Program-made: the position numbers and the translations under genes
In this document: positions 5,132 to 52,283 of the stretch, one piece after another
Numbering within the stretch: position 1 is the stretch's first letter
Layout: each line of letters starts with the position of its first letter
From: Planktothrix agardhii NIES-204
GTDB lineage: Bacteria > Cyanobacteriota > Cyanobacteriia > Cyanobacteriales > Microcoleaceae
NCBI GenBank assembly: GCA_003609755.1
Contig: AP017994.1
Span: 1 to 52,365, forward strand
Direction of reading: 5' to 3'
DNA: 52,365 bases
The notes under the pieces: generated by a model
The model's database searches: none
What the model was told of the DNA's origin: nothing
What the model saw: the letters and a program-made list of their open reading frames with translations, nothing else

Positions 5132-8100
5132 TTAAAAAAATTCTAATTGTTCTTCTGATTTCTTAGGCTTTTTTTTTGTCGTTTTCTTCTTCCCTTTATC
5201 ATGAAGTCCGGCTTCAACTTCTTCGGCGTAACGTTGATGATTCAGTTGCAACAGTCGGTCTAATACTTCCCGTCTAGCTGCTTCACTAATTGTATACCGA
5301 ATTCCTTGTTTTGTTTCGTGGAAATTGTGATCTAAGGTGAGATCATCCCAACCGTAAGCCAGAGCAACAGCTTGATCCATTTCAATGTGCAGTTCTCGCA
5401 ATTTTATAATATCTGGGGATTGTTCATCGGGGTTATGAAACCGATTATAGGTTTTGGTTAATCCTTCCTGACGAGTTAACATGATTTGTTGACGATGATT
5501 ATAATAATTTTCGCCAATTTCTTCTAAGTTTATGATTTTGGATTTACGATTTACGATTGACGATTCATTTTTAAGAAGGGGAAAAGGGAATGTTTCAAAA
5601 CAGTCTGTAGGTGTATATCTTAAGTCTCCTTTCATTGAAGAAGCATAGTCACGCACCCAAGACTCATGAAAAACACCTTGTAAAATTGCAAAATAAATGT
5701 ATTTATTAAATGCTAAGATTACGGTGGCATGAGAAAAAACTATATCAGACCGTTCAAAAGCAAAAGCTAAAGTTCTACTTGTTGCTGCAATAACTAACAC
5801 TCGTTCCATATCTGCGATCATTTCATAAAGTTCAATTGTAGGTCTTGTAAAACGCCACCATATTTCACGCCTTTGTCTATCTTTATTTTTTTCTCTTTCT
5901 GGTTTAACTTTTTCCTCAACTATTTTTAAACAATCTGGATAATCAACAGCATAGGGTTTACCTTTAGAGTTTTTGGGATCATCATGGTCAGCATCTAATA
6001 GCCAATCTTTGAAATTAATCACCCAACGGCTCGGAGATTGATCTGGATTAGAGTTTAAATCTTCCCCATTCAAATAGGGAAATAAAACATCTTCATTTTT
6101 AGGATTCTTTGCAATTAATTTTTGAGCTTCTTCCGGTTCTAATACAAACCCCATTCCTAAAACCATTGAACCAATGAAAGATTTATTTTGATTAGCCATT
6201 AACCGATAAGGATTACCTGCTAATTTCCCTGGTACTGTTAAAAAGGGTGTAATTCCATTAACAGGTTTTTCATCTAAAATAAAGTCTCCTTGCCATTCCC
6301 CTTGACGCATCCAAACAAAAGCGACTTCTAAACTTGCAGTTCCTTCCCATGTTCGACTAGAAACCGCCCGATAAATAACACCTTTTCTGTCATTCTGAGC
6401 ATCATTCTTGTCATTCTGAGGATAACCCCTCTTGTCATTCTGAGCTTGCGAAGAATCTCTACTATTTTTGACGACCTCACGGAGATCCTTCGTTTCACTC
6501 AGGATGACAGTTGGAGCGTGGGGAATGACAGTTGGAGCGTGGGGAATGACAGTCGGGGTCTGGGGGATGACAGTCGGAGTCTGGGGGATGATAGTCGGGG
6601 CCTGGGGAATGACAGTCGGGGTCTGGGGGATGACAGCCGAGGTTTGTAAATTCTGAACCATTTGGTCTAACCCGACTTCTCGCGTATCTCCTTGGGCAAT
6701 AGTATTGGTTGCAACTAACCCAAATCCTCCTTTTTTACCGATTAACTGTTGCCCTCTTAAAAAGAAATAAGCACATAAATCGGCACTTCCTCTGACATTA
6801 TTGGCTAAATATTGAACTAAATAATCTCGATAGGGAGTTCCCAACGGCCCTGTAATTTTTTGACCTCCCATAAATGGCGGATTTCCCACAAGGGCATTAA
6901 AACCGATTGTTGATTGACGAGTTACGATTTTGGATTTACGATTCAGGTTAGATTCGGGTTCATTTCTCGCAGTTAGGAAGACTTCAGGAAATTCTAATTC
7001 CCAATGGAAGGGATTTAAACTGTTTAAATCAGGTAAAATTTTCCGTTGATAGTTGGTAATACTTGCTTTCCCTTGAGCAACCATTAATAAAGTTAATCGC
7101 AGGTCTTGTTGTTCCTGTTTTTTTACATTGGTGAGATAACTAGAAATTAATAAATCTGCCCTATCTTTTAAATCTTTAATTCTGGCATTGGCTTGAAGGA
7201 GTAAATATTCTTTTTCCTTTTGGTCTTGGGGACTGTTGACGGGTTTCGATTCAATTTGTAACCGAAAATCAATAACTTCATTTAATAATTGTTGTAAATC
7301 ATCTCCGCCAATTCCTAATTGATAAGATTCCCCCTCAGTTTGTAAATTCCACCGTTTTAACTGTTCTAAATTCACTCCCACTAATGAATCTCCAGCTTTC
7401 AAAGCATGGTCTAAAAAGGTAAAGGGTTTATCTTTTTGTAAGGTTTCTAACCATAAAGATAACTTTGCCATTTCCACCGCTAAGGGGTTTTTATCCACTC
7501 CATAAATACAACGTTCAGCAATAATGCGTTTTGCCACCATTAACCGTTCTGTCGCGTCAATGGGGATAATCGATTCTTGAGGACGAGACTTAGATAATTG
7601 ACCATCCGGTGCAATCACAATTTTACCTGGATTTGCCGTTTCTGCTTCTTTCCAGGCTTCTATTAATCGTTCTCCTAAATATCGACAAACCTGAACTAAA
7701 AACGCCCCCGACCCCATCGCCATATCACAAATTTTCAGGTCTAAAAGTTCCGGCGCAGGAATTAACTTCCACTCGGTTTTCGGTTTTCCTTCCGCCACGC
7801 CTTGATATACTAAAGGTTCTAAAGTATAGCGAACAATTTCTTCCGTTAAACTCTTGGGGGTGTAATGGGTTCCCGTTTCTCGGCGGTTACTTCCTTGGGC
7901 AACATAAACGCTTCCGGTGGGAATAATGACGGGATAACCGAAGGTATCAGAGCGAATTAAATTAACAAAGGGTTTCACCCGTTCCAATAATTCTGAATTA
8001 TTATTACAAGCAATTAACAGGTTATTATTCTGAGCATAACCCCTCCTGTCATTCTGAAGATTATTCTTGTCATTCTGAGCATTATTCTTGTCATTCTGAG

Positions 8101-9772
8101 CTTGCGAAGAATCTCTACCATCCTTCACGACACCACCGAGATCCTTCGTTTCACTCAGGATGACATTATTGTTATCATTTTGAGCGTCATTCTTATTCCT
8201 TTCACTCAGGATGACATTATTGTTAAAGTTTGCACTATCAACGGCTTTTTTTAGCGTCGTTTCAGACCGTCCGGTTAAAGTTTTGAGAATTTTAATGAAC
8301 TCATTTTCCCCTTTAGCAAAAGCAATTTCTAATTCATCTAAAGTAATTTCGGGTTCTTTGTCTTTTGTCCCCAATAATCCTAAAACCGGAGAAGTTGCGC
8401 GAATTGCGGTATGGTCTAATAACCCTTCATACACATGACCAATTTGTTCCACATCTAACGCCCGAAACGATAACCGTCTTGGTTCTGTTCCACCGCCGGG
8501 AACTTTGATTTGTAAAATTTGTAACGCTTCTAATAAATGTAAAACAGTTCTATTATCAATAGGAATGGGTTGGGAGGAAACTTGTTGCCAATTTCCCTCG
8601 GTTCGTCCTTCTAAAAAGGGGAATTTATCGGGGTTAAACAAATCGCCACCTAATGCGGGTAAACGCAATAAATCATGGTCTATCCCCCCATAAACTGCCC
8701 GAAATGTGGCTAATAAACGACACCAAGCATCATGGCGACGTTCTAAGATTTCTTCCCCATAATGGTCAGCAACTTCTCGCAGTTGTGACCGTAAGGTTGA
8801 GACAGAGTAAGATTGATCATAAAGGGACTCGCCTAACCGTAATAAACCTTTTTCTTCGGCTGAAAAGAGAAACACTAACCGCATCATCATAAATAAAGCG
8901 GCTTCATAAAGTTGAGTTTGTGAAATATTTTTTAATAATTTACGGTTACGGTCTTGATCAATTTTATCAATTTTTTGAATTAAAACTTCAACGGCTTTTC
9001 TAACTTGATACCCTAATTGGTCAGTAACTTCCTGTTGACTATCGGCACTTTTAACAAATAAAGCTTCTAAGGTTTGGTCATCTGGAACCCCAAAAAAGCG
9101 TTGCACCCCTAATAAACTTCTAAACGCTTGGAGGGTGATTTTTTCTTCTAACCATAAATTGGCATACCAAGAAATATAACTAACGGTTGGGGAAGGGGTA
9201 TTATATTTAATCCCTGGGGCGATTTCATTGGTTCCCGTCGGGGCATTAATTAACATCCAATGTTCCCCATTGGTAATTAATCCTAACCAGACTCCTGTTC
9301 CCCGAAGTAATTCCATCATTCGGGTTGCGGGAGAGGCTGACCAGCGAGAATTTTTTAGGGTTTTTTCTAACGCTTGTTCGGGAGGATAAATTTGCACCAA
9401 TAAACGAATTTTAGGGCGGTTTGAATCGGCTGAATCATCTATTGAATTAACAATATAATCCGGGCGCAGGGTTTCTTGATGTTCAGGAATAAAGACTTTT
9501 AAACCTTGGGGAATGTTTTGCCCTGTTTTTAGGACTTCATCGGGAAATTCGAGGATTTCTTTTAAAACCCATTCTCCCCAAGTTCGATGAATTCCCACAT
9601 CGCCATGATTTTCTAGCCATTCTTCATACGCTTGACGTAAAACCCGAAATCGCTCAGGGTCATGGGCATCTAACCCTTGAGGAAAAACCTCTAATAAGGT
9701 TTGCAAGCTTAAGAAGGGGCCAGAAGCTTCAATTAAGGATAACCATTCAGCATGATGACGAGCAATAGACAT
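5132..9772 (-). CDS. drmMI: DISARM adenine-type DNA methylase DrmMI
   Basis: This large methylase (1546 residues) marks host DNA in class 1 DISARM so that the system attacks only unmodified DNA. It has a long N-terminal region, then GTHYTPKSLTEEIV, the SAM-binding motif MAMGSGAFLVQV near residue 687, NPLAVEMAKLSLWLETL, and the catalytic NPPF (GNPPFMGGQKI) near 962, as in Eco57I-type N6-adenine methylases. The C-terminus is Lys-rich. Two blocks are low-complexity insertions: about 520-580 (ILSETKDL/QNDKNN) and 1042-1140 (seven PTVIPQT-type units plus another ILSETKDL block). Both come from repeats that entered the gene in frame. No frameshift is visible, so the gene may be intact. DrmD lies upstream and drmA downstream. 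Confidence 0.9.
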   Translation of the reverse strand: MSIARHHAEWLSLIEASGPFLSLQTLLEVFPQGLDAHDPERFRVLRQAYEEWLENHGDVGIHRTWGEWVLKEILEFPDEVLKTGQNIPQGLKVFIPEHQETLRPDYIVNSIDDSADSNRPKIRLLVQIYPPEQALEKTLKNSRWSASPATRMMELLRGTGVWLGLITNGEHWMLINAPTGTNEIAPGIKYNTPSPTVSYISWYANLWLEEKITLQAFRSLLGVQRFFGVPDDQTLEALFVKSADSQQEVTDQLGYQVRKAVEVLIQKIDKIDQDRNRKLLKNISQTQLYEAALFMMMRLVFLFSAEEKGLLRLGESLYDQSYSVSTLRSQLREVADHYGEEILERRHDAWCRLLATFRAVYGGIDHDLLRLPALGGDLFNPDKFPFLEGRTEGNWQQVSSQPIPIDNRTVLHLLEALQILQIKVPGGGTEPRRLSFRALDVEQIGHVYEGLLDHTAIRATSPVLGLLGTKDKEPEITLDELEIAFAKGENEFIKILKTLTGRSETTLKKAVDSANFNNNVILSERNKNDAQNDNNNVILSETKDLGGVVKDGRDSSQAQNDKNNAQNDKNNLQNDRRGYAQNNNLLIACNNNSELLERVKPFVNLIRSDTFGYPVIIPTGSVYVAQGSNRRETGTHYTPKSLTEEIVRYTLEPLVYQGVAEGKPKTEWKLIPAPELLDLKICDMAMGSGAFLVQVCRYLGERLIEAWKEAETANPGKIVIAPDGQLSKSRPQESIIPIDATERLMVAKRIIAERCIYGVDKNPLAVEMAKLSLWLETLQKDKPFTFLDHALKAGDSLVGVNLEQLKRWNLQTEGESYQLGIGGDDLQQLLNEVIDFRLQIESKPVNSPQDQKEKEYLLLQANARIKDLKDRADLLISSYLTNVKKQEQQDLRLTLLMVAQGKASITNYQRKILPDLNSLNPFHWELEFPEVFLTARNEPESNLNRKSKIVTRQSTIGFNALVGNPPFMGGQKITGPLGTPYRDYLVQYLANNVRGSADLCAYFFLRGQQLIGKKGGFGLVATNTIAQGDTREVGLDQMVQNLQTSAVIPQTPTVIPQAPTIIPQTPTVIPQTPTVIPHAPTVIPHAPTVILSETKDLREVVKNSRDSSQAQNDKRGYPQNDKNDAQNDRKGVIYRAVSSRTWEGTASLEVAFVWMRQGEWQGDFILDEKPVNGITPFLTVPGKLAGNPYRLMANQNKSFIGSMVLGMGFVLEPEEAQKLIAKNPKNEDVLFPYLNGEDLNSNPDQSPSRWVINFKDWLLDADHDDPKNSKGKPYAVDYPDCLKIVEEKVKPEREKNKDRQRREIWWRFTRPTIELYEMIADMERVLVIAATSRTLAFAFERSDIVFSHATVILAFNKYIYFAILQGVFHESWVRDYASSMKGDLRYTPTDCFETFPFPLLKNESSIVNRKSKIINLEEIGENYYNHRQQIMLTRQEGLTKTYNRFHNPDEQSPDIIKLRELHIEMDQAVALAYGWDDLTLDHNFHETKQGIRYTISEAARREVLDRLLQLNHQRYAEEVEAGLHDKGKKKTTKKKPKKSEEQLEFF
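6502..6648. repeat. Seven 21-bp tandem repeats inside drmMI
   Basis: The unit around ATGACAGTYGGRGYSTGG recurs at positions 6504, 6525, 6546, 6567, 6588, 6609 and 6630, a strict 21-bp period. On the coding strand it gives PTVIPQT/PTVIPHA units. The array abuts the end of an interspersed CATTCTGAG-family repeat and seems to have grown from its terminal GGATGACAGT. The period keeps the frame, so copy number can vary without destroying the gene. Confidence 0.9.
8030..8222. repeat. CATTCTGAG-family repeat cluster inside drmMI
   Basis: Repeated GTCATTCTGA and CACTCAGGATGACATTATTGTT segments, with the GCGAAGAATCTC core, occupy this stretch. It is translated as an Asn/Asp/Lys-rich insert containing ILSETKDL. 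The same family forms the tandem array at 4811-5098 and a second in-gene block near 6390-6502. The insert lies between the N-terminal domain and the methylase core, where a flexible linker would be tolerated. Confidence 0.8.
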
Positions 9773-9774
9773 CT

Positions 9775-9941
9775 TGGGATTTACGATTTGGGATTTACGA
9801 TTTACGATTTGGGATTTACGATTTACGATTTGGGATTGGGGATTGGGGATTGATTTGGAGATTTAATAACATACATTTTAATCCCTCAATCTAAATTCAT
9901 CAATCGTAAATCCAAAATCGTAAATCCCAAATCGTAAATCG
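9775..9941. repeat. GATTTAC heptamer arrays in inverted orientation
   Basis: Bases 9777-9852 hold GATTTACGATTT/GGGATTTACGATT units and 9903-9941 hold the reverse complement (AATCGTAAATCC). The two halves can therefore pair across the short unique centre. They resemble the short tandemly repeated repetitive (heptanucleotide) sequences known from cyanobacterial genomes. They fill the gap between the four-helix-bundle gene and drmMI. Confidence 0.85.
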
Positions 9942-10301
9942 TTAGTTTTTTTCTTTTGAGCGAAGGGTTTTTATAGAAGAAACTATCATGGCTAGGATTT
10001 CATTAGTTTCAGAAATGAGACTTTTTAACTTGTCTTCTGGTATTAAATTGGCTTCAATCAATAATTCTAACCAATAAAGTGTTTCATCTGCTTCTTCTTC
10101 AACAATTTTTAATTTATTAATAAAATCTGCTGTTGATTTAGCTCGACAAGCAGCACGGTAATTAGCTCCTACAGAAGTTGCCGAGCGTAACAATTGTTTA
10201 CCAAGAACTTGACCTGTTGTATTTGATGGTAAAGCAGTGACTAACCGAATAACTCTGACAGCTAAACTTTTCGTTCTTTCTTTAAACTTCACCTCATCCA
10301 T
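9942..10301 (-). CDS. Four-helix-bundle protein (S23 / 23S rRNA intervening-sequence family)
   Basis: This 119-residue, almost fully helical protein begins with KFKERTKSLAVRVIRLVTAL. Family hallmarks include GKQLLRSATSVGANYRAACR (residues about 33-52) and DETLYWLELLIEANLI (about 71-86). The family was first noted as ORFs in 23S rRNA intervening sequences; its molecular role is poorly known. Here it lies between drmD and drmMI in the same orientation and is bracketed on both sides by inverted heptamer repeat arrays. It looks like a passenger that entered the DISARM operon with or through those repeats. A link to DISARM function would be speculation. Confidence 0.85.
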   Translation of the reverse strand: MDEVKFKERTKSLAVRVIRLVTALPSNTTGQVLGKQLLRSATSVGANYRAACRAKSTADFINKLKIVEEEADETLYWLELLIEANLIPEDKLKSLISETNEILAMIVSSIKTLRSKEKN

Positions 10302-10317
10302 AAAAAACCTTCATATT

Positions 10318-10562
10318 TGGGATTTACGATTTACGATTTACGATTGGGGATTGGGGATTGGGGATTGGGGATTTATGGGTTATATTATTTATAATTTATG
10401 AGTGTAAATTTATTGTATATTTTTTTCTAAGTAATTATACATTTTTAACACTTAATATAAAAAATCATAAATGTAAATCTATGAACCATAAAGTGTAAAC
10501 TGTAAATTCCTAATCATAAATCAAAAATTCCCAATCGTAAATCCAAAATCGTAAATCGTAAA
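10318..10562. repeat. Heptamer arrays flanking an AT-rich spacer
   Basis: Bases 10318-10370 carry GATTTACGATT and GGGGATT units; 10513-10562 carry the inverse (AATCGTAAATCC and AATCGTAAATCGTAAATC). The space between them is AT-rich with no open frame I can support. The arrangement mirrors the arrays at 9775-9941, so the four-helix-bundle gene has a repeat pair on each side. Confidence 0.75.
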
Positions 10563-13500
10563 TCATTTAAGTTTTTGGGGAATAAAATAAGTAATCGCAA
10601 TGGGGAATAATCGAGCCTTTGGATTAGAAAATCGAGAATAAATCGCTGTGGTTTCTCGTTCAATTTCTTTGGGAATTTGTTCTAATCTTAATTTTAAACT
10701 ATTGCGATTGCGTTCCAACTGATCCTTTTCTATTGAAGTAAATAACTCTAACTGAACAAAATCCGGTTCATTTAATTCTTGTTCAATACTCCGTTGCAAT
10801 TCAGTTAAAATTGCCTTGATATCCCCTACTTCTTTGTCACATCGGTCTTGCAAGCTTTTTTCTAAGGAAGTTCTGCGGTCGCCCATTCGTTTTTCTAATT
10901 GTTTCATTAAGGGATGAGTATATTGATTCCACGCCTTAACCAACCGTTCTTTCATTTCGTCCGAAACCAAATTAGGAATTGCAGATTGAATCACGTTTTC
11001 CAATTTCATCACCTTTAACGGGTTAAATTTTCCTTGTTCTAAGGTTCCCCCGGCGGTGATTAATTCTTCATGTAACCGATGTTGGTCACTCCCTAAAATG
11101 ACTAATCGCCCGTAAGCTACAACAGCCGGATATTCTAAGATTGAATTTGGAACAACTTTAATCGTCACCCGATGTAAGTTTTTATTTCCTTCCCGTGACC
11201 AAACCTCCGCTCGGAGTAAGCGTAAACACATCTGAACTAAGCGATGGTTCAAATGAATTAAAACCAAATCGTCCCGTCCTCTCGTTAAATTAGGGTCAAA
11301 AACAATGGGGCGAATTTCTCCGGTGTGGGGATGGGCTAACCCTTGACTGCACCCTGCCCAACTGCCTTTTAAGGGGGGAAGAATAAAAGCTGAAGGATAG
11401 TCTTTATAAGGGATTAACGGGGGCTGTCCGGCTAATTCTAAACCCACTTTAACCACAGATTCAATATTACTGGGATCTAATCTTAAGCTAGTGCGGGTTT
11501 CATCTAATTGTTCTTTTAATTTCTGAATTTGTTCGCGGATTTTCCGTTCAAATTTCAATAACCGTCGCACAGGTTCACTTTCTTTTTCGGCTTTCGTGGT
11601 GTCCAGGGTTTGGCGTTTTCCTAACATCGCTTCTTCGACTTGGATAGCAATTACTAGCCCTACTTTTCCTAAATCTTCACGGATGTTATTTACTTTTAAA
11701 GCCGCCCGCATTAAAAATTCTAAATCCCCTTCTAATTCTCCAGGGGATAACCCAACAGTTGATTGTTGAGAATAACTTTTGCCGACAAAATGATAAATAC
11801 TCACTTGTTGGGCTTTTTGTCCATGACGGTCAATACGGCCGTTTCGTTGTTCCATGCGGTTCGGGTTCCAAGGAATTTCATAATGAATTAAACGAGAACA
11901 ATGATTTTGTAAATCTAAGCCTTCGGAAGCGGCATCGGTAGCCAGGAGAATGCGGACATTAGACAGTTCTGGACTGGCTTGGAAGGCGGCTTTAATTCGT
12001 TCTCGGTCTTCTGCTTTCATTCCTCCATAGAGGGTCATTAAACGGTCATTTTCCGCGAGTCCTTGGGTGGCTAAAAGTTCATATAACCATTTTTGGGTGG
12101 TGCGATATTCGGTGAAAATAATGACCCGTTCCGTAGACCATTGATTATTGGGTTTAATATAGGTTTGAATCCAATTCAGGAGTTCTTTGGCTTTAGAATC
12201 AGGAACCGGAGAAGCGGCTTCTGCCCATTGTTTTAAGCGATTGAGGATTGTTCTTTCTTCAGGGGTTAGTTCTCGAAATAAGGAAGAAGTAGTAGCGATC
12301 GCATCCTCTGTTGTGGTTTCATACAAATCATCATCCCCAAATTCTTCATCAATCAGATCTAACTGACGGCGTAAAATTCCAGGTGTCGGTTTGGAGACAG
12401 TACGAGAGGTGCGAGGTTTAGCTTTTTGTAGAGTTTGATCATGTTTTTCTAACGTTGTTAAAAATGCCATTGGCGAAGAAAATAGGCGTTTTTTCAATAG
12501 TTTTAAAACAAATTCTGTAGCTGTTAATTCGACTTGGTTCTGGGGATTTTTTCGTCGTAATTGAGTATATTGAGTTAACAAGCGATTCGCTTCGCGTTCA
12601 GCGTCGCTATAGTTAACGGAAATGGCTTCTAATTGTCGTTCCGGGAAGCGGGGTGTGCCATCCCAATCGGTAATTTCTGATTTTAACCGTCGCACCATAA
12701 CGACTTGTAATTGATTCTGGTCTGGTGCAACGCCTCGGGCAAATCGTTGAGAATCCAATAATTCTAATAAAGCAGTAAAACTTTCAGGATAACCGTTATG
12801 GGGCGTGGCGGTTAGAAAAAGTTTATGTTCAAAATGGGGTTCAATTAAACGAATTGCTGCGGTGCGTTGAGAATCAATGGCATAATTTCCCCCGCCTGAT
12901 GGGGCAATATTATGAGCTTCATCGACAATTAATAAATCAAAACGACGGGGATAAATCGATTCCCCTTCACTGGGTAGAGCTTCTCGAAATAAGCGTAAGG
13001 GTCGATCTCGTTTGAGAAAATCAATTGATGAAATTAACCGAGGAAAATGTGTCCAAGGATTAACGTGCAGTCCCCGATTTCTTCTTAAGTCTCGCATTAA
13101 GTCTCGATTGACAATCCGAAACTCTAAACCGAATTTATCCCGCATTTGTTCTTGCCATTGGATTTGCAGAGAAGATGGGCAAATGATTAAAATGCGTTGA
13201 ACTCGTTGGCGTAAAATTAATTCTTGGGCGACTAATCCCGCTTCTATGGTTTTTCCTAACCCCACATCATCGGCGACCAAAAGATTTACCCTGGGCATTT
13301 GAATCGCTCTCACAACGGGGTCAAGTTGGTAATCTTCAATATCAACGCCACTGCGAAAGGGAGATTGTACAGAACGGACATCAGCACTGGAGGAAGCTCC
13401 CCAACGCACAGCATCGAGAAAGGCATCTAATCGTTCTGGCGCATCAAACCCATCGGGATAGGGCAGTTCTTTAGATTCATAAATACAAGCCCCAGGTTCC

Positions 13501-13703
13501 AGTTCCCAGATGACTTGCAGTTCTTCTCCTAAACCATCATCTTCGACTGAAGTGAGGGTAACTAAATGGTGTTTAGAGAAGGTAAAACTTAGGGTTAAGG
13601 GGTTTTGAGGAAGGGAAGAAGATTCGACATCAATGACTGAAAATCGTCTTCCTCGCACCTCTACAAGTTGCCCTGGGTCTGGAATCGGGGTTGGGGTTGC
13701 CAT
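10563..13703 (-). CDS. drmD: DISARM SNF2-like helicase DrmD
   Basis: This is the SNF2/RapA-type ATPase specific to class 1 DISARM (1046 residues). Motifs in order are Walker A DDVGLGKTIEAGLVAQ near residue 148, the DEAH box VDEAHNIAP near 260, VIIFTEYRTTQKWLY near 528, and the arginine-finger segment NGRIDRHGQK near 624. The C-terminal third is helical, with charged coiled-coil-like stretches. Starting at ATG 13703 leaves a short N-terminal region before the helicase core, usual for the family. It is the first DISARM gene in transcription order; the HNH gene lies 242 bp upstream in the same direction. The helicase motifs are intact. Confidence 0.9.
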   Translation of the reverse strand: MATPTPIPDPGQLVEVRGRRFSVIDVESSSLPQNPLTLSFTFSKHHLVTLTSVEDDGLGEELQVIWELEPGACIYESKELPYPDGFDAPERLDAFLDAVRWGASSSADVRSVQSPFRSGVDIEDYQLDPVVRAIQMPRVNLLVADDVGLGKTIEAGLVAQELILRQRVQRILIICPSSLQIQWQEQMRDKFGLEFRIVNRDLMRDLRRNRGLHVNPWTHFPRLISSIDFLKRDRPLRLFREALPSEGESIYPRRFDLLIVDEAHNIAPSGGGNYAIDSQRTAAIRLIEPHFEHKLFLTATPHNGYPESFTALLELLDSQRFARGVAPDQNQLQVVMVRRLKSEITDWDGTPRFPERQLEAISVNYSDAEREANRLLTQYTQLRRKNPQNQVELTATEFVLKLLKKRLFSSPMAFLTTLEKHDQTLQKAKPRTSRTVSKPTPGILRRQLDLIDEEFGDDDLYETTTEDAIATTSSLFRELTPEERTILNRLKQWAEAASPVPDSKAKELLNWIQTYIKPNNQWSTERVIIFTEYRTTQKWLYELLATQGLAENDRLMTLYGGMKAEDRERIKAAFQASPELSNVRILLATDAASEGLDLQNHCSRLIHYEIPWNPNRMEQRNGRIDRHGQKAQQVSIYHFVGKSYSQQSTVGLSPGELEGDLEFLMRAALKVNNIREDLGKVGLVIAIQVEEAMLGKRQTLDTTKAEKESEPVRRLLKFERKIREQIQKLKEQLDETRTSLRLDPSNIESVVKVGLELAGQPPLIPYKDYPSAFILPPLKGSWAGCSQGLAHPHTGEIRPIVFDPNLTRGRDDLVLIHLNHRLVQMCLRLLRAEVWSREGNKNLHRVTIKVVPNSILEYPAVVAYGRLVILGSDQHRLHEELITAGGTLEQGKFNPLKVMKLENVIQSAIPNLVSDEMKERLVKAWNQYTHPLMKQLEKRMGDRRTSLEKSLQDRCDKEVGDIKAILTELQRSIEQELNEPDFVQLELFTSIEKDQLERNRNSLKLRLEQIPKEIERETTAIYSRFSNPKARLFPIAITYFIPQKLK

Positions 13704-29407: not shown

Positions 29408-31114
29408 TTATTTTTTATGCAAATTGGAATGAAAGAAACCCACAATTGATTCTAAAAATAATTTTTCTCTTGCTTCAATGTCGGTGTTTACCCAATCATC
29501 ACTTGGGTATTTTGAAAGATCATTAACATTAGCAATGGGTGAGTCCTTATATTTATTTTTCTTTTGTCCGAAATAACCATTACCAGCTTGGATGTTTAAT
29601 TTTTTTCCTATAGCCACTTTGTTTCCATATCGCTCCAGATAGACTTTTGCATCTTTTTGATTCCAGCCATTGTAGTTAGCTGCTTGCCAAACACGAGGGA
29701 AAATATGTTCAATCTCAAAATTGGACTCAATCAATTCAATTTGATTAGGATTTAGATAAGCGTGAAGCAAAATAATGGCGCGAGCAATTTTATAATTAAC
29801 CGTTTGAGACAGAGTGATCGAAAATTCTGAAGAAATTGAAGAAGTTATTGTAAGCGGCTTTCCTTCAAAAATATCAATGCAAAATTGGTAGCATGAGTCC
29901 TTTATTGCATTTACGGTTGGCTTCTGAACAAACTCGGAAAACAGAAATGAAACCAAAGTTGCGAGATATTCAGAAAAACTTGTATAAAACGAATCCGAAT
30001 CTTTATTTTTGAAAAAATATGCACTTGTAACATATTTCCAGTATTCGTTCGGGTAATGATTAAGGCAATGAAGATATTTAAACGACTGGCGAGAAATAAA
30101 TTCTCGCTCCTGAAATTTTGATTCGCCTTCTTTCACAGTTAGCCAAAATTCTGCAAGCTCTTGCAATTCTTTCATCAAATCAGTTTGCTTTAATTTTTTG
30201 AATTTATTGTCAACGCCAGCATAAAATTTTCTTAGACCGATTTCCTTTGTCCTATCACCGTTTCTGCCACGAATAACGTGCGAATAATTTCGGAAGAGAG
30301 CATCCAGGCTTATCCCTGCGTCATCGACTGTTTCAGTAAGCTCTCTCCATGAAGAAGTGAATTCTGATTTTTCCTGAGCAGTAGTCTTAGTACGATAAAG
30401 TTGGGCTTTAAAAATGTCGGAATCTGAAAGCGGCATTCCTCGGTCGTTCAGAGTTGAAAATATGGTCAACGCTGTGTCTAGTTTTTCACAGTCAATTGGA
30501 AGTATAATGCAATTCTTTAAAATGGAAACACAAAATCCCTGCCAATGAATTGGATTTTTCATTGCGTATTTTTCACACATTGAAAAGAAATAATTATAAT
30601 TCTTTGAATAAAGATCGGTAGCGCTTGACTCTGATTTTCCTGTCCGAAGAATTGCATGAAATACTTCATTGTCAGATTCAGTTGCAACTCGTGATTCTAT
30701 ATGGATTACACTTGTGTTAGAAACTCTTCCCGAAATAGGATTAACGTCCCAAATACATGGTGCAATTTGATTCTTGAGACCTGTAATATTGTCATCTTCA
30801 ATTGCACTATTTTCTAATTTTGAATAAAATGCTCTAAGAAGAAGCAAAAGTGATGTGATACGTTGTTGACCATCAATAACTTCTATTTCAATCTTTCCAG
30901 ATTCATCGTTTTTACAAGTAACAACCGTGCCTAAGTAATACTCCTCATTTCCCGTACTTTCTTCAAAAAAACTGGTAAGATCCTGCCATAGAATTTCACA
31001 TTTTTCTAAATCCCATTTATATGGTCGTTGATAATCAGGGATTATGAATTTAGTTCCCTGCATTTCAGAAAATAAACTACTTATACTTTTTTTCGTGACA
31101 TTAAGTTCTGCCAT
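29408..31114 (-). CDS. GmrSD-like DUF262/DUF1524 restriction protein
   Basis: This 568-residue single-polypeptide protein belongs to the GmrSD/ParB-like DUF262 group. DUF262 motifs are at the N-terminus: IPDYQRPYKWDLEKCEILWQ and EVIDGQQRITSLLLLLRAFY (DGQQR near residue 81). The C-terminus carries the DUF1524 HNH-type nuclease motif FEIEHIFPRVWQ near 468 with a downstream GNKVAIGKKLN. GmrSD cuts modified (glucosylated hydroxymethylated) phage DNA; relatives act as type IV restriction or BREX-associated factors. Both halves look intact. It stands alone, convergent with the thermonuclease genes. Which modification it recognises cannot be read from sequence. Confidence 0.85.
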   Translation of the reverse strand: MAELNVTKKSISSLFSEMQGTKFIIPDYQRPYKWDLEKCEILWQDLTSFFEESTGNEEYYLGTVVTCKNDESGKIEIEVIDGQQRITSLLLLLRAFYSKLENSAIEDDNITGLKNQIAPCIWDVNPISGRVSNTSVIHIESRVATESDNEVFHAILRTGKSESSATDLYSKNYNYFFSMCEKYAMKNPIHWQGFCVSILKNCIILPIDCEKLDTALTIFSTLNDRGMPLSDSDIFKAQLYRTKTTAQEKSEFTSSWRELTETVDDAGISLDALFRNYSHVIRGRNGDRTKEIGLRKFYAGVDNKFKKLKQTDLMKELQELAEFWLTVKEGESKFQEREFISRQSFKYLHCLNHYPNEYWKYVTSAYFFKNKDSDSFYTSFSEYLATLVSFLFSEFVQKPTVNAIKDSCYQFCIDIFEGKPLTITSSISSEFSITLSQTVNYKIARAIILLHAYLNPNQIELIESNFEIEHIFPRVWQAANYNGWNQKDAKVYLERYGNKVAIGKKLNIQAGNGYFGQKKNKYKDSPIANVNDLSKYPSDDWVNTDIEAREKLFLESIVGFFHSNLHKK

Positions 31115-31961: not shown

Positions 31962-32369
31962 ATGACAGCAATTAACCCAGAAATTATCCCAAACAATGAA
32001 CGGGTTAGGCTTTACAAGAATCGAACCGAGAACAGTTTGTACACTTCCCAAAAAGATTTAACTTCTCGTTTGAAACGGAAGGCACAAACACTCAGAACAT
32101 GGGTCAACCTTTTGATTACTCATGTTGACAGTTTTTGGAAGTTCTACAAACCTCGTAAAGCTTACTGTGATTATGTTGTCTGGTGTATTGAGCGCATTGA
32201 TGAACATGACAAAAAGCAATGTAAATCAGCACCACGACCGGACATAATTGAGGATTTTATTGTTAACAATTCTCAATCATTGACCATCAAAAAATACTTA
32301 GAGGAATTGGAAAATGTCTGCACAACCGAAACAAAAATCGACAATGCAAAACTTAGCAAAGTCGCTTAA
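31962..32369 (+). CDS. Hypothetical protein, first gene of the rightward operon
   Basis: This 135-residue, basic protein has many Tyr/Trp residues in the middle (WVNLLITHVDSFWKFYKPRK and CDYVVWCIERIDEHDKKQC). AAAGGAAA directly precedes the ATG. No family is recognised. Its 3' end overlaps the next gene by 56 bases in another frame, so the two are likely translated in coupled fashion. Operon position suggests a role with the coiled-coil and FtsK-like proteins downstream, but this is only inference from location. Confidence 0.6.
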   Translation: MTAINPEIIPNNERVRLYKNRTENSLYTSQKDLTSRLKRKAQTLRTWVNLLITHVDSFWKFYKPRKAYCDYVVWCIERIDEHDKKQCKSAPRPDIIEDFIVNNSQSLTIKKYLEELENVCTTETKIDNAKLSKVA

Positions 32370-33069
32370 AGTTGGTGAAACTGAATTACTAATTGCCATA
32401 AAACAACTTGGCTTAAATCCATCAGAAGTAGAGGAAAGTTGGGGGGATGCGATCGCCAATCATCTAACCGGAACCAAGCCCCAAACACTCAAGGGAACCA
32501 AACCAGAAACCCCGGAAAGTTTCAGTATTGAGGACTCAGACGACTTTGTGGACTGGGATGAAATTGAGGATGAATTAGGAGAAACCGCCTTAGCACTTGT
32601 TCAGGAGTTGGGACTAGAACGAGAAGCTGTGACCCGTTCTGATTTTGCAGCGCTCAAGGAACTCGCTCTCAGTAACCCAGTGGCAGAAAACATGGTGAAC
32701 CATATCGGGGCCGTTGGGGGTTTATCCGGTGGCTTGATTGATGAATATATCCGACAACAACGAGACAATGCTCAAGCCCTTGCAGATGCCGGAAATATCG
32801 AGTTTGCCAAGACTTTATTACAGGGACAAATCGAGGGAATTAACCAGGTTGTTGGGTTGCAAAATTTGTTAGCTGAAGACTTCCAAAACTTAATTCACCA
32901 ACGGATTGAGGAACTGGGAAAACGGGGAAAGGAACGCCCAAACGAACTGATAAAGGACTTGGGAAAAAAGGCAACAACCAACCAACAAAGCAGTCAGAAA
33001 ACAACAACAGTACGGCACAAAACCCTGGATTTAGTCGGACTGAAATCGAAAGCCTCCAACAGCAAATAA
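32314..33069 (+). CDS. Hypothetical acidic protein with a -1 frameshift site
   Basis: In the zero frame this is a 251-residue, acidic helical protein. An N-terminal helix-turn-helix-like region (MQNLAKSLKVGETELLIAIK) is followed by an Asp/Glu-rich linker (IEDSDDFVDWDEIEDELGET) and long helices. AGAGGA about 10 bases upstream supports the start at 32314. At 32964-32970 the gene contains A AAA AAG in the slippery phase. After a -1 slip the frame stays open to TAA at 33246-33248, adding a coiled coil in place of the last 32 zero-frame residues; the product would be about 311 residues. No family is recognised. Confidence 0.65.
   Translation: MSAQPKQKSTMQNLAKSLKVGETELLIAIKQLGLNPSEVEESWGDAIANHLTGTKPQTLKGTKPETPESFSIEDSDDFVDWDEIEDELGETALALVQELGLEREAVTRSDFAALKELALSNPVAENMVNHIGAVGGLSGGLIDEYIRQQRDNAQALADAGNIEFAKTLLQGQIEGINQVVGLQNLLAEDFQNLIHQRIEELGKRGKERPNELIKDLGKKATTNQQSSQKTTTVRHKTLDLVGLKSKASNSK
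32964..32970 (+). promoter_or_regulatory. Putative programmed -1 ribosomal frameshift site
   Basis: The heptamer A AAA AAG lies in the correct zero-frame phase (..GGA AAA AAG GCA). AAAGGA at 32952-32957 stands upstream like the internal Shine-Dalgarno that stimulates the dnaX frameshift. The -1 frame encodes ESLQQQINQLKETVILLESR, a clear heptad-type coiled coil, and has no start codon of its own before position 33144. I see no strong downstream hairpin. Confidence 0.6.
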
Positions 33070-33248
33070 ACCAATTAAAAGAGACGGTAATCCTGCTAGA
33101 AAGCCGTCTCTCTAATAAATCCAACCATCACGAAGGATTAATTATGAAAGCGATTATATCACGATTACAGCGCATCCTACGACAACTTGAGAGCATATCA
33201 TCCAATCAATATGACGGTTTAGTTATGCAGTGTTTGGGAGGGTTTTAA
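32970..33248 (+). CDS. -1 frame extension: coiled-coil C-terminus
   Basis: This is the 92-codon stretch reached only by a -1 slip at 32964-32970. It is polar (GNNQPTKQSENNNST) and then helical, with a coiled coil at about 33038-33115 and a second helix (MKAIISRLQRILRQLES). The TAA stop falls two bases before the ATG of the next gene, good spacing for a genuine operon member. An alternative is a separate 34-residue ORF starting at ATG 33144, which would leave the upstream coiled-coil coding signal unexplained. A recent frameshift mutation is the other alternative. Confidence 0.55.
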   Translation, partial: GNNQPTKQSENNNSTAQNPGFSRTEIESLQQQINQLKETVILLESRLSNKSNHHEGLIMKAIISRLQRILRQLESISSNQYDGLVMQCLGGF

Positions 33249-33249
33249 T

Positions 33250-33783
33250 ATGGGAATTTTTGATGCTTTTGGTAAAATTTTTGGCGGTGGTAAAAACAAT
33301 AGTGCTACCGACCCCAAAATAGCTATTAAAGGGGATATTTCACCTATCCCACAAAACCTAATCACCCCTGACTATAGACCACAGAACGGGGTTTATATTG
33401 CCACTTCTGCTGACCTTTTAAGGGAATGGGAATCAAAGGGCTGGATGATTTCTAAAGATGATTTAGAAACTCTCAAAGCCATGCACAAAACCCTTGAAGG
33501 TTATGAAAAAATCAGCAAGGAATATGGCAAGGAATTGGGAGCTTTTAGTAGAACAGAAGCTAAATTAGTCGGAACTGTAACTAAAACTATCCCTAAAGTT
33601 GCAGGCGGTAATTTTGCCCAATATGCAGCTAATCAAAAGCTTAATTCTGATATGGATAAAATAGCTGTTGAGTATCAGAAAAACATTGCTCTAAGACAAG
33701 CGGAAGCCCGACAACTGCAACAACAACTACAACAGCAAAAAGCACGAATACAAGAGCGTAAAGAACGCTTGAGAGGAGGTTAG
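33250..33783 (+). CDS. Hypothetical coiled-coil protein
   Basis: This 177-residue protein begins with an amphipathic Gly/Phe helix (MGIFDAFGKIFGGG), which could associate with membrane. A globular segment follows (PDYRPQNGVYIATSADLLRE), and it ends in a Gln/Arg-rich coiled coil (ARQLQQQLQQQKARIQERKE). GGGAGG directly upstream serves as its ribosome site and overlaps the end of the frameshifted frame. The stop touches the ATG of the next gene. Family unknown; the context is an operon with two membrane or ATPase components. Confidence 0.65.
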   Translation: MGIFDAFGKIFGGGKNNSATDPKIAIKGDISPIPQNLITPDYRPQNGVYIATSADLLREWESKGWMISKDDLETLKAMHKTLEGYEKISKEYGKELGAFSRTEAKLVGTVTKTIPKVAGGNFAQYAANQKLNSDMDKIAVEYQKNIALRQAEARQLQQQLQQQKARIQERKERLRGG

Positions 33784-49613: not shown

Positions 49614-50408
49614 CTATAATTTTACTAAAACTTCTTGATGAATTAGGTGATAAATTAGATCAGTGACTTGAGAGGCTAAGGCTGGACTTTTGAGTAATAC
49701 TCCCATTTCCATATTCAAGGTCAAAGCATATTCGGTGAGATTGGCACTGGTAATAAATAAATATTTCTGATCCGAAATCACACTTTTAATATGTAAAGAA
49801 CCATAACGTCCCTGCGGATCATGAAGCCGCTTTTCTACAGGCCAAAGAAAAACTTGCGCGTCTCTAAGGATTTTCTGCCCCAATGCGGTTGTTCCTTTAA
49901 AAGACATCTTACCCCCTTCTGCTTGAGTAGTTTCTAAAATAATTTTTAATTGAATTCCTCGCTCTAAGGCTTCTAATAAAGCTTCGGCAATTTCTGGGAT
50001 TTTATAAACCGCAAAACTAATAATAATTAATTGTTGTTGGGTGTCTCGAATCAATTGTAATAAGACTTGATCTGTCCGTCGAACTGGAATCCCTAAAGTG
50101 GGTGGGCCTGTCCAAACTAATTCGGCTGCTAAGGATTGTTGAGAGGTTTGAATCGAATAAGCTGAAGCCATTAACGCAGATGCGATCGCACGACTATCCC
50201 AATCCGATTGATTTTGTTGCCAAAGGGTAAACAATTCACCCACTAAACGGCGAAACATTGGATTAGAAAGTTGATTTAAAATTTGATCAATGAACGGATA
50301 ATGGGAATCAAAAACTTGCTCTCCCAAAGAATGAATGACAGAGTTTAACACCAGAGGCGGTAATTCTTGAGCCACCTGATAAATTTTTTCTAACAGTTGA
50401 CGATTCAC
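49614..50408 (-). CDS. drmC: DISARM phospholipase-D-like protein DrmC
   Basis: This 264-residue PLD-superfamily protein has one visible HKD-type motif: YGSLHIKSVISDQKYLFITS with SANLTEYALTLNMEMG, near residue 200-235. A preceding segment RRTDQVLLQLIRDTQQQLII is typical of PLD nucleases. In DISARM, DrmC was reported as dispensable in the best-studied case. It starts 6 bases after drmB ends and is the last gene of the operon. The following 138-bp gap to the mobile region contains no gene. Confidence 0.9.
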   Translation of the reverse strand: MNRQLLEKIYQVAQELPPLVLNSVIHSLGEQVFDSHYPFIDQILNQLSNPMFRRLVGELFTLWQQNQSDWDSRAIASALMASAYSIQTSQQSLAAELVWTGPPTLGIPVRRTDQVLLQLIRDTQQQLIIISFAVYKIPEIAEALLEALERGIQLKIILETTQAEGGKMSFKGTTALGQKILRDAQVFLWPVEKRLHDPQGRYGSLHIKSVISDQKYLFITSANLTEYALTLNMEMGVLLKSPALASQVTDLIYHLIHQEVLVKL

Positions 50409-50414
50409 AAGTTT

Positions 50415-52283
50415 TTACTCAAAAAAAGCTAAATCATCCCGTTCAAGGGTCGAAACCAATACCGTTCTATCTAAAAATTGATTTCCCCGTTCACAAGAGG
50501 TTTCAGGGGCAAATAAACAGGCATGGCAGGCAGCCCAATGTAAGGTCGGAGTTCCCTCCATTGGCTTATGTTCAGCACAGAGGGGATCTGAAGCACATAA
50601 ACGCATTTGCTCTAAGGCTTGACTGATGTGGTGTCCTAGGGTTTTCGGTTCACCTAAATGGACTAATCCCCCTAATGTGCCTTCACTATCAGGAGTTGCT
50701 GTATAAATTAATAATCCGGCTTGAGGGCCATTCTCGTCTTCTGGGGGTTTGGAGTAGATCCGTTCTCTAAGACTGGCTGCATTATAACCACATTCAATTG
50801 ACAATTGACGCATTAAGGTGTGAGAGAAGGAATGAATTAATAAATAACGAATGGAGGGAGAATGAATTTTATCAGGATCTAAATTTCGACTATTAAGCCA
50901 ATTTTTATGGGCTTCACGGGTTAAAATTTCATGTTTGCGGATACCCGGACGTTGTTCCCATTCTTGTAAAAAAGATTCTTGAAAACGCAAAAAAATTCCC
51001 TCCCCTTTAACTTCTGTCGTGGGAACCCAGGTGGGAGGATTACGACTAATAGAAACTCGATATTCCCGGGGAATTTCTCCCGTATCCGCAAAATCCCCAG
51101 GAGATTGAATGCGGGTAAAACCAATTAAAGCCCGAACTTCCCTTAGTCGTTCTACTAACACGGTGGGTTCAAAATACGCTTCAAATCCAACGGGAGGTGC
51201 GACAGTTCTTAACTGAAATTCTGAATTATTTTTACTGGGGTTAGCGGTTGAAAAAACTTCCCATTCAGGAGTTTTTAAATCCTGTGCATTGTCGTTGGTT
51301 TCTAAACCTTGTTGTTGTTGCTGTAATGTATTCCAAATATCTTCTAAGGAATTATTGGCAAATTCTTGTAGTTGTCCCATTGCTTGCATTGCTGCTAAAA
51401 TAGCTTGTAGAATTTCTCGACTATTTGCTTTACTGAGAGCATTAAAATTGCGTTCCACTAACTGCCCTAATACATTGGAATCAACGGGAATGGAAAGAGC
51501 GGATAAGGTAATGGAAAACCAACTATTAGAAGCCCCTAATAAAATACTTTTCATTTGTTCTTTACAATCTTCATCAAAGCTACGAAGATGGGGGTGATGA
51601 GCGCGACAACGGGGCATATTTTTTTTACCCGAATCTCCAAAGGCATCGGACAGACTTCGGGGCGGAATGTCACACCCTTTACACCGAACAAAAATATCCG
51701 TAACGTTCCCTGAAACGCCTCTTTCTTCTAAATATAAAGGCCCTGGACAGGCTGCTTGACCGTGATGAACAAAATAAGACCAGGGAAAATCATCTAAATG
51801 TCCTCGTTCACAAGCAACTAAAAAACGGGCAGGAATAACGGCAGGGGGTTTACTGGTTTTGGAGCAATTCTTATGAACATAACGGGTTTCATTAGGGCGA
51901 TAAGGATTAATTTTGAGTTCAAATAATTGGGAGGCTAAAGGAGCTAATAATCGACAGCGAGGACAAACCATCCAAGTGGGAAACGGAGCCACAGGAATCC
52001 CGATTTTAGAGCCTTCATCAAAGGGGTTAGACGGGTCAGAGCTTTCAGGAGGCATAGGAGGTGAAAGCAGTTGTTTAACTTGATGTCCGAGTTCTTTGCG
52101 AACTGCGGCTAAAAGACGATTTTCTGAGAGTTCAATGGTATGGTTCCTATTCCAGTCTTCTAGTCCCATAACCATTGCAGAAAGATTCGGTAAATCGGCA
52201 ACCGCCCCAATTCCATAGGTGAATAAAATTTGGCTTGGACGCAGTTCACCGACTTTGGTTTTTTTGGGTGGAGATTGAGTCAT
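50415..52283 (-). CDS. drmB: DISARM DUF1998 protein DrmB
   Basis: This 622-residue protein begins with SQILFTYGIGAVADLPNLSA, has a zinc-like CPRCRLLAPLASQLFEL near residue 107 and paired cysteines to about 225 (CKGCDIPPRSLSDAFG). The C-terminal DUF1998 domain contains IRYLLIHSFSHTLMRQLSIE near 480-500, and cysteines HWAACHACLFAPETSCERGN near 590-610. DrmB forms a complex with DrmA that loads on DNA ends. It lies directly after drmA across the circular junction and 6 bases before drmC. Confidence 0.92.
   Translation of the reverse strand: MTQSPPKKTKVGELRPSQILFTYGIGAVADLPNLSAMVMGLEDWNRNHTIELSENRLLAAVRKELGHQVKQLLSPPMPPESSDPSNPFDEGSKIGIPVAPFPTWMVCPRCRLLAPLASQLFELKINPYRPNETRYVHKNCSKTSKPPAVIPARFLVACERGHLDDFPWSYFVHHGQAACPGPLYLEERGVSGNVTDIFVRCKGCDIPPRSLSDAFGDSGKKNMPRCRAHHPHLRSFDEDCKEQMKSILLGASNSWFSITLSALSIPVDSNVLGQLVERNFNALSKANSREILQAILAAMQAMGQLQEFANNSLEDIWNTLQQQQQGLETNDNAQDLKTPEWEVFSTANPSKNNSEFQLRTVAPPVGFEAYFEPTVLVERLREVRALIGFTRIQSPGDFADTGEIPREYRVSISRNPPTWVPTTEVKGEGIFLRFQESFLQEWEQRPGIRKHEILTREAHKNWLNSRNLDPDKIHSPSIRYLLIHSFSHTLMRQLSIECGYNAASLRERIYSKPPEDENGPQAGLLIYTATPDSEGTLGGLVHLGEPKTLGHHISQALEQMRLCASDPLCAEHKPMEGTPTLHWAACHACLFAPETSCERGNQFLDRTVLVSTLERDDLAFFE

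Follow-up and report, generated by a model that had tools for sequence, protein, structure and literature searches.

A plasmid gene of the cyanobacterium Planktothrix agardhii NIES-204 is very probably decoded in two frames by means of programmed −1 ribosomal frameshifting, and on sequence evidence it most likely represents a new gene family that makes use of this type of recoding. The gene is carried by the forward strand of a 52,365-nucleotide stretch (positions 1 to 52,365 of contig AP017994.1, assembly GCA_003609755.1), hereafter the window, as are the parts of the gene described below. Most ribosomes presumably complete frame 0 and release a protein of 251 residues. Some would slip back by one base, with tRNA-Lys on the heptamer A_AAA_AAG (32964–32970), and continue in the −1 frame, producing a 311-residue protein in which the same 219 N-terminal residues are followed by a tail predicted to consist of a coiled coil, two more helices and a YDxxxM motif. 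In one half of the family, slippage appears to have been relocated to other A tracts, and a separate start at the internal ATG 33144 may also yield the last 34 residues alone. We infer both the slippage in the cell and its rate; the simplest guess as to its role is that a minor long isoform equips a plasmid-maintenance protein with a tail for oligomerisation or partner binding.

The frame-0 ORF (32314–33069) contains the consecutive codons GGA (32962), AAA (32965), AAG (32968) and GCA, which place A_AAA_AAG in the X_XXY_YYZ phase, in agreement with an earlier, sequence-only reading of the same DNA. The heptamer is preceded in phase by G_GGA_AAA (32961–32967), and further in-phase heptamers are found in the open overlap at 32916 (G_GGA_AAA), 32925 (G_GGA_AAG) and 32937 (C_CCA_AAC). 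The −1 reading frame (32910–33248) encompasses 112 codons, 59 of them beyond the frame-0 stop, and provides a 92-residue tail after the slip, so that the coordinates give predicted products of 251 and 219 + 92 = 311 residues; the first reading had likewise arrived at 219 shared residues and forms of 251 and about 311. Its statement that the −1 frame has no start before 33144 also holds, inasmuch as neither ATG, GTG nor TTG precedes that position and a single CTG is located at 33093. An imperfect 30-nt direct repeat with 45-nt spacing occupies 32900–32974, and the heptamer is located in its second copy.

The frequency of such arrangements was gauged in 259 ORFs of at least 150 aa from 452 kb of sequence (20 chromosomal stretches and the window). 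In this screen, in-phase A_AAA_AAN heptamers occur at 1.3 per 1000 codons and in 137 of 2369 segments of 45 codons, and in-phase A_AAA_AAG was counted 11 times in 112,957 codons, including the copy in the window. An open −1 extension of at least 55 codons past the stop, taken alone, is not unusual (27 of 259 ORFs). The combination of such an A_AAA_AAN heptamer in an open overlap with a −1 extension of at least 20 codons is found in one of the 259, namely ORF 32314–33069.

The gene is part of a co-directional run that includes a 135-aa ORF (31962–32369), which overlaps the start of the frame-0 ORF by 56 nt, the frame-0 ORF itself, a 177-aa ORF (33250–33783), a 90-aa ORF, and a 483-aa protein with weak similarity to FtsK (PF01580 at E 0.003, under the cut-off; no PDB match). 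A Prim-Pol/DUF3987 protein and a ParA-like ATPase are encoded farther along. An overlap between the upstream ORF and the frame-0 ORF, variable in length, is annotated in all seven plasmid relatives read; the 135-aa ORF has no Pfam (sub-cut-off matches only), PHROG or NCBIfam family. Just upstream of the run, the opposite strand carries an ORF (29408–31114) for a GmrSD-type endonuclease (Pfam GmrSD_N/GmrSD_C; PADLOC models HEC-06 and Orf5). DISARM-like genes are present at both ends of the window (5132–13703 and 49614–52283), with DrmMI and DrmD on one side and DrmC and DrmB on the other; the two gene sets would adjoin each other on a circular contig ending at this point.

At E up to 0.1, the frame-0 protein has no match in Pfam, PHROG or NCBIfam, and alignment A1 gave no PDB match. 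Its AlphaFold2 model has a mean pLDDT of 46 and is confident only for a small helical N-terminal region (residues ~8–52). Window matches among named records are plasmids of P. agardhii, P. rubescens and P. pseudagardhii, and in the collections searched, the frame-0 protein is confined to Planktothrix plasmids, genomes of the same genus and one IMG/VR contig. The frame-0 profile matches 5 of 388 genomes of the order, all five from the genus of the window; among the ten genomes of that genus searched, five have a match and five do not. Scans of the viral collection with the frame-0 protein alone or with the tail alignment A2 returned no match, and the scan with alignment A1 returned a single contig (L041). 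One match to the frame-0 protein, in genome G005 (E 7e-4), was rejected as chance, as it sits in a 499-aa ORF otherwise without resemblance. For the tail, a phylum-wide search of 386 genomes yielded weak partial matches in four genomes outside the genus (G552, G586, G620 and G652; E 2e-4 to 9e-4), and weak matches were also obtained in G001 (E 2e-3) and G007 (E 9e-3). The tail has no phage match, and its domain matches are weak, lie under the curated cut-offs where such exist and include no transposase. The Rfam search near the gene gave two matches, both far below the gathering score.

Sixteen distinct places, 15 loci and the IMG/VR contig L041, carry the end of the frame-0 gene, so that homologue coverage comprises Planktothrix and one contig. 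Not counted separately are L004, which over this stretch does not differ from L012, and L007, which lies on a different plasmid and here has the same sequence as L008, both of which agree with the rest, as well as L016 (a chance match) and L019 (the same place as L018). L003 (G000:C3:20867-21207), a 5′-truncated copy that keeps approximately the last 55 frame-0 codons, the slip site, the tail and the hairpin described below, was used for the slip site and tail only and is absent from the pN/pS, parsimony, hairpin and openness tests. In L018/L019 (G045:C5), frame 0 is interrupted near codons 34–44, with A tract and tail intact, and L018 was used from codon 44 on. Openness resampling involved 12 of the 16 places and the hairpin-free pN/pS analysis 9.

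The helical tail is encoded in the −1 frame in all 16 places. According to the sequence-only reading, homologues with both parts in one frame and no slip site would speak against frameshifting; such fusions of the tail to the frame-0 gene were sought in the 16 places and none was seen. Frame 0 is conserved up to its stop, and the frame-0 residues T221, S227, V233, R234, D239 and K244, all after the slip, are invariant in both alignments. These observations bear on the possibility that one ORF was split by an error in sequencing or assembly, or by a recent mutation. Homopolymer runs are error-prone, and several relatives carry strain names that also occur among the long-read assemblies described in PMC9366434. 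However, 16 distinct places, in several strains and the IMG/VR contig, show the same arrangement, with protein identities down to ~50% and A tracts that differ, and frame-0 residues past the slip are conserved towards the stop, which makes this explanation extremely improbable.

Slip sites fall into two groups of eight places each. The first has GGA AAA AAG at a DLGKK motif (GGA AAA AAA in L010), corresponding to A_AAA_AAG or A_AAA_AAA. Members of the second, ~50–57% identical to the window, have GGG AAG at the DLGKK position (GGG AAA in L014) and display A_AAA_AAA ~11 codons later in two places (L013 and L014), G_AAA_AAA at the same later place in four (L011, L015, L017 and L018), A_AAA_AAC in between in one (L041), and no recognisable slip site in L002, which belongs to the same genome as the window and has an intact tail ORF. 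Overall, an in-phase A_AAA_AAN is found in 11 of the 16 places, G_AAA_AAA only in 4 and neither in 1. Conservation of the heptamer and of both frames had been put forward as a check; the −1 tail was indeed kept in all 16 places and frame 0 is conserved up to its stop, whereas a heptamer at this position is restricted to half of the family. G_AAA_AAA is one of the A-rich consensus heptamers of the GeneTack clusters according to PMC3711429. A second-group slip at G_GGG near DLGK was considered and dropped, because PMC4066793 ascribes the signal of this motif probably to initiation.

If the −1 frame is translated, it should be kept open and evolve as protein. In all 16 places it is open over 35 codons or more ahead of the frame-0 stop; in chromosomal ORFs, 182 of 2755 segments of 35 codons are open in −1. 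When synonymous codons of frame 0 were resampled from the LG codon to the stop, the probability of an open −1 frame given the frame-0 amino acids was 0.0003–0.05 per sequence with chromosomal codon usage and 0.006 to 0.09 with the usage of the window, these values being non-independent because the sequences are related and visibly mosaic. All 12 sequences tested had an open −1 frame and a closed +1 frame. Once hairpin codons are excluded, 15 coiled-coil codons located after the frame-0 stop and ahead of ATG 33144 have a pN/pS of 0.34 in the −1 frame (bootstrap over codons 0.16–0.62) and 1.08 and 1.50 in the other two frames (9 sequences; pooled pairs, non-independent for the same reason); for the full stretch from stop to ATG, the values are 0.52 in −1 versus 0.94 and 1.03. 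Indels in this stretch (+3, +3 and −9 nt) are all in-frame. A parsimony count over the whole stop-to-ATG stretch revealed no excess of changes at third positions (40, 34, 39; P 0.44), and the last ten codons before the ATG diverge freely. No third-position excess was found in the overlap either (60, 52, 33), where frame 0 would mask one.

Synonymous divergence of frame 0 provides a further view of the overlap. In the second group (six pairs), frame-0 pS is 0.84 at codons 217–228, and 0.48 at codons 229–240 and 0.40 at codons 235–246, after the A tract; this fall is as predicted for putative dual coding, although pS is also as low as 0.63 at codons 211–222. In the first group (L001 versus L010), no fall after the heptamer was detected, with frame-0 synonymous divergence of 0.11–0.24 before and 0.24–0.50 after it. 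The tail is modelled as a long helix followed by two further helices, with a conserved YDxxxM motif near its end. The long helix (tail residues 26–50, 33036–33110; pLDDT ~72–88) spans the frame-0 stop, and its hydrophobic heptad positions, assigned by eye, continue through that stop in the aligned sequences. Together with the pN/pS of the coiled-coil codons, this prediction is consistent with the coiled-coil character attributed to the −1 frame at the outset. Collectively, the open frame and its protein-like evolution support the view that the −1 frame is translated upstream of its first ATG.

That ATG deserves separate consideration. ATG 33144 is invariant in all 16 places, its surrounding positions vary, and in the window it is preceded at 6 nt by a Shine-Dalgarno-like GAAGGA (33132–33137). 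The clearest third-position signal of protein coding lies after it (P 0.0012, parsimony count). Given these three features, a third, separately started product of 34 aa (33144–33248), corresponding to the C-terminal part of the tail, is plausible. Upstream of the ATG, within the code for the tail, lies an inverted repeat, AGAGACGG-N16-CCGTCTCT (33080–33111; 8-nt arms, 16-nt spacer), that could form an RNA hairpin. All 15 loci examined retain it, none with more than one of the eight pairs broken, and in L010 one pair is changed on both sides. Synonymous variation is lower in stem codons than in the remaining ones (pS 0.24 versus 0.65), and a genome-wide search for the hairpin pattern recovered only the three copies of this gene family. 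The two kinds of tail ending (GGF/GGL or GLCI), each with differing downstream sequence, suggest recombination near the hairpin. L008 and L009 share one sequence from a point 50 codons upstream of the frame-0 stop until shortly after the ATG, beyond which 31 positions are different, and the copies L008, L009, L002 and L041 look mosaic around the internal ATG.

These features would also suit a gene without any frameshift, in which the 3′ part is a separate 34-aa gene starting at ATG 33144 and the preceding stretch is conserved as an RNA or DNA hairpin, the more so as the arms of the hairpin fall on the invariant residues T-V and S-R-L. Nevertheless, such an arrangement leaves unexplained the open −1 overlap, the low pN/pS in non-hairpin codons before the ATG, the in-frame indels in the same stretch and the slippery tracts; moreover, the Shine-Dalgarno-like sequence is weak in L018 and L041, as judged by eye. 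We consider it improbable as a full account, and a separate small gene at ATG 33144 can be compatible with frameshifting. At the other end of the tail, the ATG of the next gene (33250) is located one base after the −1 stop TAA (33246–33248), and an ATG representing a candidate gene start lies at −1 to +2 nt from the −1 stop in 13 of the 16 places; this placement would be fitting for translational coupling.

Programmed −1 frameshifting in bacterial genes entails an in-phase slip site in an open 0/−1 overlap and a −1 frame conserved as protein, both of which are found here. An upstream Shine-Dalgarno-like stimulator and a downstream stem are frequent in such genes but not obligatory, and neither was recognised in its usual position. 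The sequence-only reading had placed AAAGGA (32952–32957) in the position of the dnaX stimulator; the actual gap to the heptamer is 6 nt, outside the 9–14 nt spacing given for Shine-Dalgarno-like −1 stimulators in PMC5009743 and at the edge of the 6–17 nt range searched in PMC4066793. No stem or pseudoknot 5–8 nt downstream was found, folding being no better than that of shuffled sequences (z −1.20 to 0.49, five sequences), and in the window no structured RNA was detected just after the heptamer (z 0.08 for 32971–33050, and −0.04). The hairpin in the tail starts 109 nt past the heptamer and is thus too far away for a usual stimulator. According to PMC4066793, A_AAA_AAG accompanied by stimulators is among the most efficient motifs in E. 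coli. A search of the genome located tRNAs in 39 places; the only tRNA-Lys among them has anticodon TTT, and CTT is absent. The set may lack a few tRNAs, because PMC9366434 gives 42 for a related strain. In E. coli, likewise, a single tRNA-Lys reads AAA and AAG (PMC5009743).

The −1 frame could also be reached if RNA polymerase slipped in the A tract and added a base. Runs of seven or eight A's are found in the overlap in 8 of the 16 places (L010, L011, L013, L014, L015, L017, L018 and L041), and runs shorter than nine may suffice in some bacteria, as indicated in PMC1088944. The same source reports selection mostly at nine, and this typical length is not reached: none of the runs is longer than A8, and the window, like 7 of the 16 places, has only six A's. 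Furthermore, in-phase heptamers such as A_AAA_AAG and A_AAA_AAC are dispensable for slippage of the polymerase and required for slippage of the ribosome. Transcriptional slippage is therefore very unlikely, and ribosomal frameshifting remains the preferred reading.

Several known systems resemble the gene in part. The −1 product of IS3/IS1-family orfAB is longer than the frame-0 product, as in the Planktothrix gene, and the phage tail assembly chaperones G and GT are a short and a long form with a common N-terminus, the extension coming from the −1 frame. The insertion sequences use the same A-rich motifs (PMC4066793) and are mobile DNA, whereas the Planktothrix gene has no detected transposase domain and resides in a plasmid gene run near a weakly FtsK-like ATPase. 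A short and a long form with a shared N-terminus are also described for carboxysomal CsoS2 (PMC5009743). Unlike G/GT and CsoS2, the gene belongs to neither a phage tail operon nor the carboxysome genes, and its tail gave no phage match. E. coli dnaX shares A_AAA_AAG, a single tRNA-Lys(UUU) and two products with a common N-terminus; however, its slip shortens the product and is accompanied by a Shine-Dalgarno sequence and a downstream stem-loop (PMC3711429, PMC5009743), whereas in Planktothrix the slip would lengthen the product, the Shine-Dalgarno-like gap is 6 nt, and neither a nearby stem nor a DnaX-like domain (DNA polymerase III tau/gamma; Pfam, NCBIfam and PHROG, E up to 0.1) was found. 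The GeneTack clusters have in common with the gene a conserved frame transition and an A-rich heptamer; Planktothrix is not named in the main text of PMC3711429, and the family could still be among its clusters.

A more far-reaching interpretation, which we regard as rather doubtful, is that this one plasmid gene gives rise to three proteins (251 aa, 311 aa and the last 34 aa), with the output kept while the slip site moved among close relatives (three positions and four heptamers) and with the conserved hairpin tuning either the product ratio or the internal start. Literature searches on Planktothrix plasmids, frameshifting in Planktothrix and cyanobacterial frameshifting gave no report of the gene among the matches listed, and the word “frameshift” does not occur in the main text of PMC9366434 on complete Planktothrix genomes. 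In seven plasmid records, the tail has no entry in the incomplete PLSDB gene table; a conserved protein segment of a bloom-forming genus has thus probably been missed. Frame slips that give two versions of a protein are already known from other bacterial genes. The family described here represents a compact natural series, in which close plasmids have different slip sites and the same predicted product; it would allow measuring how frameshift signals move while the output stays, and would contribute a cyanobacterial example of recoding that involves neither transposons nor carboxysomes.
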